Part shown: positions 43,327 through 47,067 of the stretch, piece by piece
Position numbering within the stretch: position 1 is the stretch's first letter
Layout of the letters: the number at the start of each line of letters is the position of its first letter
From: Betaproteobacteria bacterium
Lineage (GTDB): Bacteria > Pseudomonadota > Gammaproteobacteria > Burkholderiales > Burkholderiaceae_E
Length of the DNA stretch: 52,701 bases
Assembly: GCA_018970865.1 (NCBI GenBank)
Contig: JAGWVN010000014.1
Location: 1 to 52,701, forward strand
Direction: 5' to 3'
The notes under the pieces: model-generated
Told to the model about the DNA's origin: nothing
The model's input: only the letters and a program-made list of their open reading frames with translations
Database searches by the model: none
Made by a program: the position numbers and the translations under genes

Positions 43327-43524
43327 CTACTTGCCCGGGGGCGTCGGCGCGTTCTGCGAAGCCTTCGCAGCCGCGGCCTTCGCCGTGTCGGGGTGCCAGC
43401 TGTTGATGTTGTAACGATCGCCGCTGATCTGGATCAGATGGATGCTCGTCGAGACGAAAGCGATCAGCAGTCCGGTGAGGATGATCGCCTTGCGTGGGTC
43501 GACGATTCGCCAGTAACGCCACAT
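43327..43524 (-). CDS. pufA: Light-harvesting 1 alpha polypeptide PufA
   Basis: The 65-residue alpha chain has the typical [13 protein letters not shown] start, one membrane helix, and the bacteriochlorophyll-liganding His29 (STSIHLIQ). A C-terminal Trp (NSW) may tune the bacteriochlorophyll absorption. The last 20 residues are an Ala/Lys/Pro tail. The SD is AAGGAC. It is separated from pufB by an extra 73-codon gene, which is unusual because pufB and pufA normally adjoin. Confidence 0.93.
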
Positions 43525-43539: not shown

Positions 43540-43761
43540 CTAGCTCAGATGGGAGATGACCGTGTAGACGGCAGACTTCACGCCGCTCCAGGTCGATTGC
43601 GCCCCTTCGGCTCCGGGGAGCCAGGTGCGCCAGTTCCAATTCAGCAGCTGCCCGACAACGGCCAGCACCAGGAACACGGCGAACAGCGCGAAGAAGATCA
43701 GATGGAGCCCGTCGAGGGGCTTGCCGATCGACATCGGCTGGTCAGCGGATTTCAGTGCCAT
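43540..43761 (-). CDS. Unknown 73-residue single-helix protein between pufB and pufA
   Basis: It encodes 73 residues: a short polar N-terminus (MALKSADQPMSIGKPLDG), one membrane helix at about 20-40 (His20 at its start; LIFFALFAVFLVLAVVGQLL), an aromatic patch NWNWRTW (41-47), and a polar C-terminal tail that ends in an amphipathic VKSAVYTVISHL. AAGGAGG lies 5 bases before the ATG, the strongest ribosome binding site of the puf operon. Gaps to pufB and pufA are 27 and 15 bp. It lacks the central His of LH1 alpha and beta, so it probably does not bind pigment like them. It does not resemble PufX or PufQ as I know them. An RC-LH1 accessory subunit is a reasonable inference. Confidence 0.8.
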   Translation of the reverse strand: MALKSADQPMSIGKPLDGLHLIFFALFAVFLVLAVVGQLLNWNWRTWLPGAEGAQSTWSGVKSAVYTVISHLS

Positions 43762-43788
43762 GACTGCCTCCTTGGGTTGGGGTCTATC

Positions 43789-43932
43789 TCAGAACCAGGG
43801 GCGCCAGATCCACACCAGGCTGTGCGCGAAGAACGCGCCAGCCGCCCAGAGCAGGTAGCCCTGGATGTAGTACTTGTGGAATTCCTGACACTCCGCGTCC
43901 GTCAATCCGGACGGATTCACCTTGTCAGCCAT
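43789..43932 (-). CDS. pufB: Light-harvesting 1 beta polypeptide PufB
   Basis: The 47-residue beta chain has the signature SGLTDAECQEFHKYYIQGY with His19, the bacteriochlorophyll-liganding His37 (FFAHSLVW), and the terminal WIWRPWF. The frame is open far upstream through bchZ, but the ATG at 43932 with GAGGA upstream gives the standard beta chain. The 145-bp gap to bchZ holds no pufQ; it contains only a GC-rich imperfect hairpin (about 44061-44093) overlapping the bchZ stop. Confidence 0.93.
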   Translation of the reverse strand: MADKVNPSGLTDAECQEFHKYYIQGYLLWAAGAFFAHSLVWIWRPWF

Positions 43933-44077: not shown

Positions 44078-45535
44078 TCACGCGGGGCTCCCCATCCGGG
44101 GTCGACCAAACAACCTTGAAAGCTGCTCTTCCTGCACTTCGCCCAGCCCGGCAGCGCGCGCCGCCTGCTCGGCCGCATCGCGCATGCGCTTGGCCGCCGA
44201 GATGCGCACCAGCACCGGTTCGGCCTCGAGCAGCTGCTCGAGAAGACGATGCGCGGCCGGGTCCCAGGGCATGGAGCCGGCGCCGCTCGCCCGGCTGGGC
44301 GTGGCCTCGATGCGGTCCATGTCGGTGGCCAGCGGCAGGATGTGGAAGAGCGCGTCGAACAGCGCGTTGCACACCTCCTGCACCAGGTAGGTGGCGCCGG
44401 CGTAGCCCATGAAGGGCGTGCCGGTGTGGCGGCGGATGATCGCGCCCGGGAACGAGGCCGGGATGTAGGCCGCGCGCCCGCCGCACTCGGCGAGGTACAT
44501 GCGCTCGTTGTAGCTGCCGAACAGCACCAGCGGGGTCTGTTCCTGCACCAGCTGGCGCACCGTGGCGTTGTCGGTCTTCTCGCCGGGCTTGCGCGCCACC
44601 GCGAAACGGCAGGGCAGGCCCATCTCGTCTTCGAGGAAGCGACGGATGCCGCGGGCGTAGGTGTCGTTGGCCACGACCGCGAAGCTGGCCGTGCCGAAGA
44701 AGTCCTGGGTGACCGAGCGCCAGAGATCCCAGAGCGGCTTGATGGTGGTGTGCTTCTCGCGCTCGATGAAGGGCTCGGGGTCCAGGCCGAGCAGTTCGCC
44801 GAGCTTGCGCAGGAAGCGGGTGGTGCTGTGCAGGCCCACCGGGGCCTGCAGCCAGGGGCGGTCGAGCGCCTCGCACAGCATCTGGCCGAACTCGCGGTAC
44901 AGGCAGATGTTGGCGTCGGCCTCGACCAGTCGCGAGACATCGGCGAGGTGGCTGCCGAGCGGGAACACCATGTTGATCTCGGCGCCGATGCCCTGCACCA
45001 GGCGGCGGATCTCGGCGAGGTCGCTCGGCGAGTTGAACACGCCGTAACTCGGGCCGATCAGGTTGACGCGCGGCTTCTCGCCGGGCGCGCGCGGCTTGCG
45101 TGCCGGCACCTTGCGCATGCCGTACTCCGACCACAGCCAGAACATGGCGCGGTTGGCGCACTGCCACTGGTCTTCGTCGATGGTGCGCGGCAGGAATCGC
45201 TTGAGGTTGGTGCCCTCCGGCGTGACGCCGCCGCCGATCATCTCGGCGATCGAGCCGGTGACCACCACCGCGGGCAGGTCGGGATCGAGCACGCTGTGCG
45301 CGCGCTTCATGGCGCCCTCGGTGCCCTCCCGCCCCAGCTGCTCCTCGGCGAGGCCGGTGACCACGATCGGCAGCTCATGCGGCGGCAGCGCGTCGCTGTA
45401 GTGCAGCACCGAGGTGACCGGCAGGTTCTCGCAGCCCACCGGGCCGTCGATGACCACCTGCAGCCCCTTGATCGCGGTGAAGACATACACCGCGCCCCAG
45501 TAGCCGCCCGCCCGGTCGTGGTCGAGGACCAGCAT
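44078..45535 (-). CDS. bchZ: Chlorophyllide a reductase subunit Z
   Basis: The 485-residue BchZ forms the catalytic component of chlorophyllide oxidoreductase with BchY. It is NifK/BchB-like: [20 protein letters not shown] at the N-terminus, [16 protein letters not shown] near 34 with a cluster cysteine, and [17 protein letters not shown] near 100. Its ATG overlaps the bchY stop by one base (TGATG). It is transcribed toward the puf genes, giving the usual bchCXYZ-puf superoperon. Confidence 0.95.
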
Positions 45536-47067
45536 CAGATCATCTCCTCGGACTTGAGCTTCTTCTGGAGCTTGATCACCTGGCGGCGGGTGTGCTCGCG
45601 GAACTCGGGCCGGTCCTGCGGCACGCCTTCCCAGACCCCCGAGGCATGGCCATGACCGACATCGCCGAAGAAGGCCTTCATGTCGTCGAAGCGGGCCTTG
45701 TTGGCGATCGCGGTGTTGATCACCGTGGCGAGCGAGCCCGCGCCGGCCGGGCCCATCAGCGGCCGGGCCGAGATCAGGTTGGTGAAGTAGAGCGCCGGGA
45801 TGCCGGCCTGCTTGGCGGCCTGCACCACCGGCGTGGTGCCCACGGCGAGGTCGGGCTTGAACTCGCGCATGGCGGCGAGGTCGTCTTCGAGCGAGGCGCG
45901 AAAACGCACCAGCACGCCGCGCGACTCGAGCCACTCGCGGTCGGCCTGCGACCAGGGCGTGGCCGGGCAGGCGCTGCCGACATAGCGCAGGTCGGCGCCG
46001 CTCTCGACCAGCAGCCGCGCCACCAGCAGCTCGCTGCCCTCGTAGCCGCTCAGCGTGATGCGGCCCTGGATGGGGGTGCGCTGCAGCGCGGCGCGGATGG
46101 CCGGCAGGAAGCGGTTCTTGGCGTCATCGATGCGGGCCTGGGCCACGCCGGCGGCGCTGCCCACGGCCTGCAGCCAGGCCTCGGTGCCGTCATGGCCGAC
46201 CGGCGCGGAGCCGACCACCGGACGCCCGGCGGCCTCGAACTCGCGCACGCTGGCGGTGTAGAAGGGATGCAGCGCCGCGGCCACGCGGCAGTCGAGCGCG
46301 GCATAGAGCTCTCGCCACTCGCGGGTGGGCACCACCGGGCCGGCAGCCAGGCCGAGCGGGTCGAGCATCATGCCGATGCCCACCGGGTCGGCGGGGAAGA
46401 CCTCGCCGATCAGCGCCACCGTGGGCTTGTCGGCGCGACCGGCGCGCGGCGCCTGCACCGGGCCGGCGGCGATCTCGCCGCGCGCGAACTTCAGCATCGC
46501 GCCGGCGAGCACATCCTTGGCCTCGGCGTGCGTGGGCACCCCGAAGCCGGGCACATCGATGCCGATGATGCGCACGCCGTTGATCTCGCGCGGCAGCAGC
46601 TGCAGCGGCACGCCGCTGGCGGTGGGCACGCACAGGTTGATGATGACGATCGCGTCGAACTGCGCCGGGTCGGCCTGGGCGTGCACCGCCTCGCGGATGT
46701 CCTCGAAGAGCTTGCCGGTGACCAGGGTCTCGGAGTTGAAGGGCACATAGCCCACCGAGCGCCGCGCGCCGTAGAAGTGCGAGGTGAAGGTCAGGCCGTA
46801 GACGCAGCAGGCCGAGCCCGACAGGATGGTCTGGGTGCGCCGCATGCGCAGGCCCACCCGCAGCGAGCCGAAGGCCGGGCACATGCTCTGCGGCTGATCG
46901 TGCGGGCCCTGGGGGTAGTCGGCGGCGTAGCGCGCCAGGGTGTCGCTCTTGCCCGCCGAGGCGGCGGCCTCGCGCAGCGCCTGGGCGCCGGAATGGCAGC
47001 CCAGCCCGTCACCCTCGAGGGCCTGCGGGTTGGGGACGGGAGCCTGGGCCGGGCTGTCCATGGCCAT
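45535..47067 (-). CDS. bchY: Chlorophyllide a reductase subunit Y
   Basis: The 510-residue NifD/BchN-like subunit. Candidate cluster cysteines lie in [13 protein letters not shown] (about 62), [20 protein letters not shown] (about 84-103) and [14 protein letters not shown] (about 145). The first 40 residues are variable and Ala-rich. It lies 4 bp after bchX and overlaps bchZ. The complex reduces the C7-C8 bond of chlorophyllide a, and in some species also the 8-vinyl group. Confidence 0.95.

Follow-up and report, generated by a model that had tools for sequence, protein, structure and literature searches.

RC-LH1 cores differ in how quinone leaves them, and the known solutions use PufX, protein-U, protein-W or gamma. 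PufX, protein-U and protein-W are small extra membrane chains of the core (PMC8564508), and an origin of PufX from the cytochrome subunit has been looked for (PMC9640540). The gamma chains of Blastochloris and Rhodopila are extra small ring helices beside beta; the Rhodopila gamma-like chain is present in 11 copies between betas, has 22 residues and runs in the opposite orientation (PMC9640540). LH1 betas themselves can bear a C-terminal tail, as in Rhodopila globiformis (7xxf_B), Rps. palustris (6z5s_2) and the chains 9m8m_B and 8z81_B, and also in the order of the window (the whole 52,701-nucleotide stretch of DNA analysed here), where a tailed beta is the sole beta of its operon (G248, G235, G101, G320 and G349). 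Such tailed betas are ordinary ring subunits, with 16 chains of 9m8m_B, 16 of 7xxf_B and 14 of 6z5s_2 in one entry each.

The puf operon of Rubrivivax gelatinosus has two ORFs of unknown function, of which ORF2 lies upstream of pufA; the literature on it goes back to 1994 or earlier (Nagashima et al., cited by PMC12817894), and its alignment with alpha chains in a 2025 paper gave 10.1-14.5% identity to PufA2 (PMC12817894). In Roseateles depolymerans, ORF74 is placed between pufB and pufA by its locus tag, is reported to be co-transcribed with both in a major 1-kb transcript and, together with them, is among the loci that change most upon carbon starvation (PMC10037100). The gene is not mentioned in the excerpted text of a review of aerobic phototrophs (PMC12654162), the Rhodoferax antarcticus genome paper (PMC5374385) or PMC10214105. 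Neither descent of this gene from beta nor a division of tail and His between two genes was found in the literature searched; Nagashima 1994, Suyama 2002 and Kasalicky 2018 may hold remarks on either.

The initial annotation of the window proposed that a gene between pufB and pufA could encode an undescribed LH1 subunit. The gene is indeed conserved and LH1-related, but it is already in print, as ORF2 (strain IL144) and ORF74, to which it was matched by its place between pufB and pufA and its length class. The counterpart in Rvi. gelatinosus DSM 1709 (L089 5938..6162, 74 aa) shares 48% identity with the window protein (alignment A6).

The gene between pufB and pufA

On the minus strand of the window, the gene order is the frame upstream of pufB, pufB, the extra gene, pufA, pufL and pufM. 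The following features are referred to below:

44078..45934, minus strand: frame upstream of pufB, holding bchZ (context)
43789..43932, minus strand: pufB, tail-less LH1 beta of 47 aa, with His37
43767..43773 (plus-strand numbering), minus strand: AAGGAGG ribosome-binding site of the extra gene, with a 5-nt spacer to the ATG
43540..43761, minus strand: extra gene, ATG start, 73 aa, beta-derived, ORF2/ORF74 by place and length
43642..43713, minus strand: predicted membrane helix of the extra gene, homologous to the LH1 beta helix (codons 17-40)
43648..43650, minus strand: Gln at the place of beta's bacteriochlorophyll-ligating His (codon 38)
43621..43638, minus strand: W-N-W-R-T-W belt, homologous to beta WxWRPW (codons 42-47)
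43543..43620, minus strand: C-terminal tail (LPGAEG...GVKSAVYT..SHLS), homologous to that of LH1 betas with a tail (codons 48-73)
43327..43524, minus strand: pufA, LH1 alpha of 65 aa
42378..43202, minus strand: pufL, reaction-centre L subunit (context)

The coordinates of the 73-codon gene and its AAGGAGG site were confirmed, with gaps of 27 bp to the pufB stop codon, which ends at 43789, and of 15 bp to pufA, which starts at 43524. What the initial annotation said of the product likewise stood: a single membrane helix (predicted at residues 17-39), an NWNWRTW belt at 41-47, no mid-helix His (Gln38 instead) and an amphipathic tail, here assigned to a helix at 57-72 with a moment of 0.335, a value reached by 138 of 5000 shuffles. 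The predicted structure, of low to fair confidence (mean pLDDT 69.9), has helices at 17-39, 44-47 and 57-72. The reported His at the helix start is present in the window protein (His20, the -18 site of beta) but is not a family trait, being found in 10 of 110 distinct relatives. The assembly containing the window is 3.9 Mb; its single match to the LHC family is the pufB beta, and no LH2 was seen in a search in which pufA itself fell below the threshold, so that an LH2 could be missed.

A sample of 399 genomes of the order, drawn from a larger group, was searched for pufL and pufM. Matches were obtained in 48 genomes, including two that were unreadable at contig ends (G216 and G365), and the extra gene lies between pufB and pufA in 38 of the 46 readable puf operons. 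Homologues in related operons are thus the rule, and the premise of the initial annotation that LH1 beta and alpha genes are normally adjacent does not hold in this order, where that same fraction has them separated. One additional genome (G340), not among the 48, carries the extra gene without a pufL match. Eight of the 55 genomes matching the extra protein had only weak hits outside puf operons or were unread (G110, G156, G172, G189, G341, G370, G407 and G443); the match in G110, when inspected, was a chance one. In the window's own family, 26 of 74 genomes match the extra protein, three of which (L024-L026, genus g12) have a single tailed beta instead when read, and the ten of the 48 non-matching genomes that fall within the order sample show no pufL match.

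Scanning named genomes with the pattern WR[TSA]W[LF]PGAE gave 191 confirmed relatives. The record titles of the best 80 of these (L032-L111) are mostly from Burkholderiales, Comamonadaceae, Rubrivivax, Rhodoferax, Limnohabitans, Comamonas, Curvibacter and Piscinibacter, some being titled merely "beta proteobacterium" or less, and the nearest relative of the window protein among them is from an uncultured-bacterium MAG (97% identity). The three genes occur together in 77 of these 80 loci; L100 is without pufB, and L049 and L054 are without pufA, near a contig end. Since these 80 loci were chosen by the pattern, the conservation of its letters and the loss of Pro are partly selected among them; the His site, Ala-4 and tail length lie outside it. 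Across 114 distinct relatives, the order pufB-gene-pufA is kept in 109, four being cut by a contig end and one having the gene upstream of pufB. Among 123 loci distinct by DNA, the gap between the extra gene and pufA is 9-22 bp; one pufB-extra gene gap of -127 probably reflects a wrongly chosen start. At least five ribosome-site bases are matched ahead of 76 of the 123 extra genes, 73 pufB and 116 pufA, and by these counts the extra gene looks as well translated as pufB.

Descent of the extra gene from LH1 beta

The NCBIfam LH1 beta model NF040862 matched the window protein weakly (E = 0.0012; 18.7 bits, where the cut-off is 61). An hmmscan of Pfam at E ≤ 10 gave no match to PF00556, nor to the Pfam families of PufX and PufQ. 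The scan returned Imm17 and DUF2567 alone, both under the cut-off; these were discounted as chance matches on a hydrophobic helix. A Foldseek search with the predicted model gave one meaningless ribosomal hit (E = 8.7), a single helix with pLDDT of about 70 being uninformative.

Comparison of profiles with hhalign gave a far clearer relationship. The profile of 21 extra proteins (A6) aligned with that of 11 tailed LH1 betas (A3) over 61 ungapped columns at 39% identity (probability 99.5, E = 3.3e-23), and with that of 11 tail-less betas at a probability of 96.9 (E = 1.7e-10). Against eight alphas the probability was 0.9, and an alpha-like origin was rejected; the family is thus matched here to tailed beta, whereas ORF2 had been compared with alpha (PMC12817894). 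The best matches of the extra profile among PDB sequences are LH1 beta chains, namely 8z81_B (E = 1.7e-15), 7xxf_B (1e-12) and 9m8m_B (1.8e-12). All three alignments pass the belt and two run well into the tail. The closest chains of solved structure thus belong to ordinary LH1 betas from other bacteria; none of the PDB matches is named as protein-W or protein-U.

In the alignment to beta, Gln38 falls on the bacteriochlorophyll-ligating His, Ala34 on Ala-4, and W42, W44, R45 and W47 on W+4, W+6, R+7 and W+9. The extra protein shares with tailed betas the helix, Ala-4, the WxWR.W belt and the tail, without a gap, whereas those betas keep both the His and an N-terminal SGLT..EA..EFH motif. The window protein lacks this motif, and the conserved columns of alignment A1 do not include it; the N-terminal part of the extra protein is poorly conserved, with a trace of the motif (AFHGIF) left in L076. 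As judged by these alignments, the extra gene is a paralogue of LH1 beta, with common descent of helix and belt.

The PufQ gene is found upstream of pufB. A PufQ-like regulator of pigment supply, acting on tetrapyrrole enzymes, would also be a small protein of the puf operon, of which PufQ is an example (PMC5725709), but the clear homology to LH1 beta and a Pfam scan yielding just the two sub-threshold families make such a role for the extra protein very improbable.

The residue at the His site was next to never His. Counting 110 distinct relatives, a cleaner count than one of 120 rows that took in one out-of-order genome and rows differing only in the N-terminus, we found Q in 87, S in 7, T in 6, A in 3, K in 3, and E, H, L and G in one each. 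Restricting the count to the 56 distinct sequences recovered solely by profile or protein searches gave Q in 37, S in 7, T in 5, K in 3, A in 2, and L and G in one each, with no His. The sole His in the 110 belongs to two near-identical Curvibacter MAGs (L077 and L078), where it is perhaps a reversion from Gln. Other features of beta were retained: Ala-4 in 108 of the 110, Trp+9 in 109, and also Trp+6 and Arg+7. The Pro of WRPW is gone in all 110, with Ser or Thr instead in 101, and is likewise absent from the restricted set of 56. Past Trp+9, the tail is 26 residues long in 107 of the 110 and 25 or 27 in the remaining three. The rows of short betas were picked by a rule requiring His and WRPW, and their count of 94 of 94 therefore carries no weight.

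Bacteriochlorophyll could be bound by Gln, Glu, Ser or Thr, either directly or with water in between, so that the description of the protein as pigment-free is one we infer; the occurrence of Ala, Leu, Gly and Lys at the site speaks against a ligand being conserved there. Gln also ligates chlorophyll in some plant antenna sites, and the extra protein might by analogy be a second antenna beta that binds bacteriochlorophyll via Gln or water at a spectrally distinct site. The prevalence of Gln (with Glu, Ser or Thr in 14 more) and the retention of Ala-4 and Trp+9 fit this proposal. We nonetheless regard it as improbable, given the Ala, Lys, Leu or Gly in 8 of the 110 relatives, the complete loss of the WRPW Pro and an N-terminal beta motif that is not conserved.

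Loss of the key ligand might also point to a decaying duplicate without function. This reading has next to nothing left to recommend it and is already contradicted by the data on selection and conservation: dN/dS of the extra gene was about 0.20 across 35 close pairs that share no locus, tail length is nearly fixed, and the place of the gene is kept in nearly all distinct relatives. For the same 35 pairs, dN/dS was 0.16 in the extra helix, 0.11 in the extra tail, 0.10 in beta and 0.10 in the first 44 codons of alpha; by these values, constraint on the tail is similar to that on the antenna proteins.

Distribution of the tail and the histidine

The readable operons of the order sample fall into three states: a tail-less beta together with the extra gene (38 of 46); a single beta with His and a tail of 27-28 residues, without the extra gene (5 of 46), as also in the three g12 genomes of the window's family, which lie outside the sample; and a tail-less beta without the extra gene (3 of 46), all of genus f22 g74. 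The last state was read at loci L148, L149/L211 and L156 (G257, G140 and G287). The f22 g74 cores seem to do without both the tail and the extra protein, a natural control, and since L186 and L187, outside the order, also have a tail-less beta and no extra gene, neither tail nor gene appears indispensable to every core.

Where the extra gene is present, the accompanying beta ends 1-3 residues after WRPW in 170 parsed locus rows, the three rows of G475 being set apart; these 173 rows are redundant and were not deduplicated. Six more rows are without a parsed beta (L016 and L100, both cut by a contig end, and L083, L095, L103 and L104), and L205 was a chance hit. The betas of L095, L103 and L104 end in WRSWL and the beta end of L083 is broken, with no tail in any of the four. 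In L083 (Piscinibacter aquaticus), the beta is normal up to HVLVW and then breaks off without WRPW, as a frameshift or an error in sequencing would cause.

The tail sequences of the two kinds of protein are close, as seen in DGVKAAVNSFMPYVFM (tailed beta, G349) and GGVKAAVYTFMSHL (extra-protein consensus), and tails in tailed-beta loci are 21-28 residues long after WRPW. Because the tailed beta and the extra gene distribute complementarily, His and tail seem divided between two copies, and duplication of a tailed beta followed by complementary loss would be the simplest account. Both the tailed and the split states were found within one genus (f29 g44). Locus L202 (G124), in the split state, has Ser at the His site and an intermediate-looking tail ending in VIPLMFM like those of tailed betas. 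On a PufL tree of 104 rows, with some genomes present twice and 39 of 101 inner branches left open, seven changes between the split and non-split states are needed, at least two of them forced; a single origin with losses and gene transfer is thus not proved. In a helix-only tree of 82 rows, built from 33 columns and with few supported forks, 54 extra proteins lie on one side of a branch with an SH-aLRT of 94.

A parallel case was noted outside the order, in family f82, where 6 of 12 genomes match a beta-like gene of G475, one of them weakly. Loci L206 and L212-L216 (G475, G825, G826, G830 and G834) have this second beta-like gene upstream of pufB. Read by eye in five genomes, its counterpart of the His is Arg (VLARLLPRxWRPG in G475 and G825); the tail ends in LPFVFM in four. 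The operon's own beta keeps His and tail in G475, G825, G826 and G830 and is tail-less in G834. Tail and His-less gene are therefore not always complementary, as G475 has a tailed beta beside the His-less gene. The f82 gene looks like a separate event, since its place and residues differ from those of the window's family, and an independent origin is possible, based on position and two rows in the helix tree.

A possible role in the RC-LH1 core

Taken together, these comparisons make it moderately probable that tail and His were divided after duplication of beta and that the extra gene now encodes a pigment-free structural subunit of RC-LH1. The starting point would be an LH1 beta gene whose product had the bacteriochlorophyll-ligating His together with a tail of about 26-28 residues in the periplasm. 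Following duplication, the upstream copy (pufB) would have kept the His and lost the tail, and the downstream copy (the extra gene) would have kept the tail and lost both the His and the N-terminal SGLT..EA..FH motif. The product is probably a beta-derived, pigment-free structural subunit, or at least one that would not bear B870, in the RC-LH1 core. Its helix would occupy or adjoin a beta position of the ring, packing there via the Trp/Arg belt and the small Ala-4, while the amphipathic helix of its tail would lie on the periplasmic membrane surface, so that the tail would be supplied from a separate pigment-free beta-like helix. There, the tail would hold neighbouring subunits together, or mark the end of the ring or a quinone gate. 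The protein might replace beta at a ring end, sit between betas like gamma, or act in assembly only. We infer the direction of the split, membership in the complex, location, copy number and function from sequence, and lean slightly towards a low copy number, one or a few in each ring, since a chain without His cannot complete a normal pigment pair.

An assembly factor in the narrower sense would mimic beta and pair with alpha (or beta) as it is being made. It would aid ring closure, pigment delivery or insertion and would no longer be part of the core once this is complete. Conservation of a gene that has lost its pigment site would suit such a factor, as would its position, which puts synthesis of the product at the same place as that of alpha and beta. 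For a helper, however, the co-transcription with pufB and pufA reported in Roseateles (PMC10037100) would be costly, and the tail descends from that of ring beta chains; we therefore consider an assembly factor unlikely.

If the structural reading is right, the extra protein would resemble PufX, protein-U and protein-W in being a small extra membrane chain of the core. Its root would lie in beta, whereas that of PufX has been sought in the cytochrome subunit (PMC9640540). The likeness to protein-U and protein-W, and to the gamma chains, is one of description only, and the Rhodopila gamma-like chain differs in its 22 residues and opposite orientation (PMC9640540). Use of a copy of the very antenna protein, free of pigment, would then be a different solution to quinone exit, and a gene of unknown function gains a clear descent and a testable role. 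The group is large, with cultured members including Rubrivivax gelatinosus and Roseateles depolymerans, and its cores should be modelled with a possible third chain in view. Extended to the order, the proposal becomes more tentative, though still quite possible: most of its phototrophs would have a third ring polypeptide, a pigment-less beta paralogue that supplies the periplasmic tail in trans and fixes the ring end, gate or cohesion, and family f82 would have evolved its own His-less beta-like gene upstream of pufB. Among solved structures, chain 4 of PDB 8k5o is a 105-residue beta-domain chain, single in its entry, and may be a one-copy beta variant in another core.
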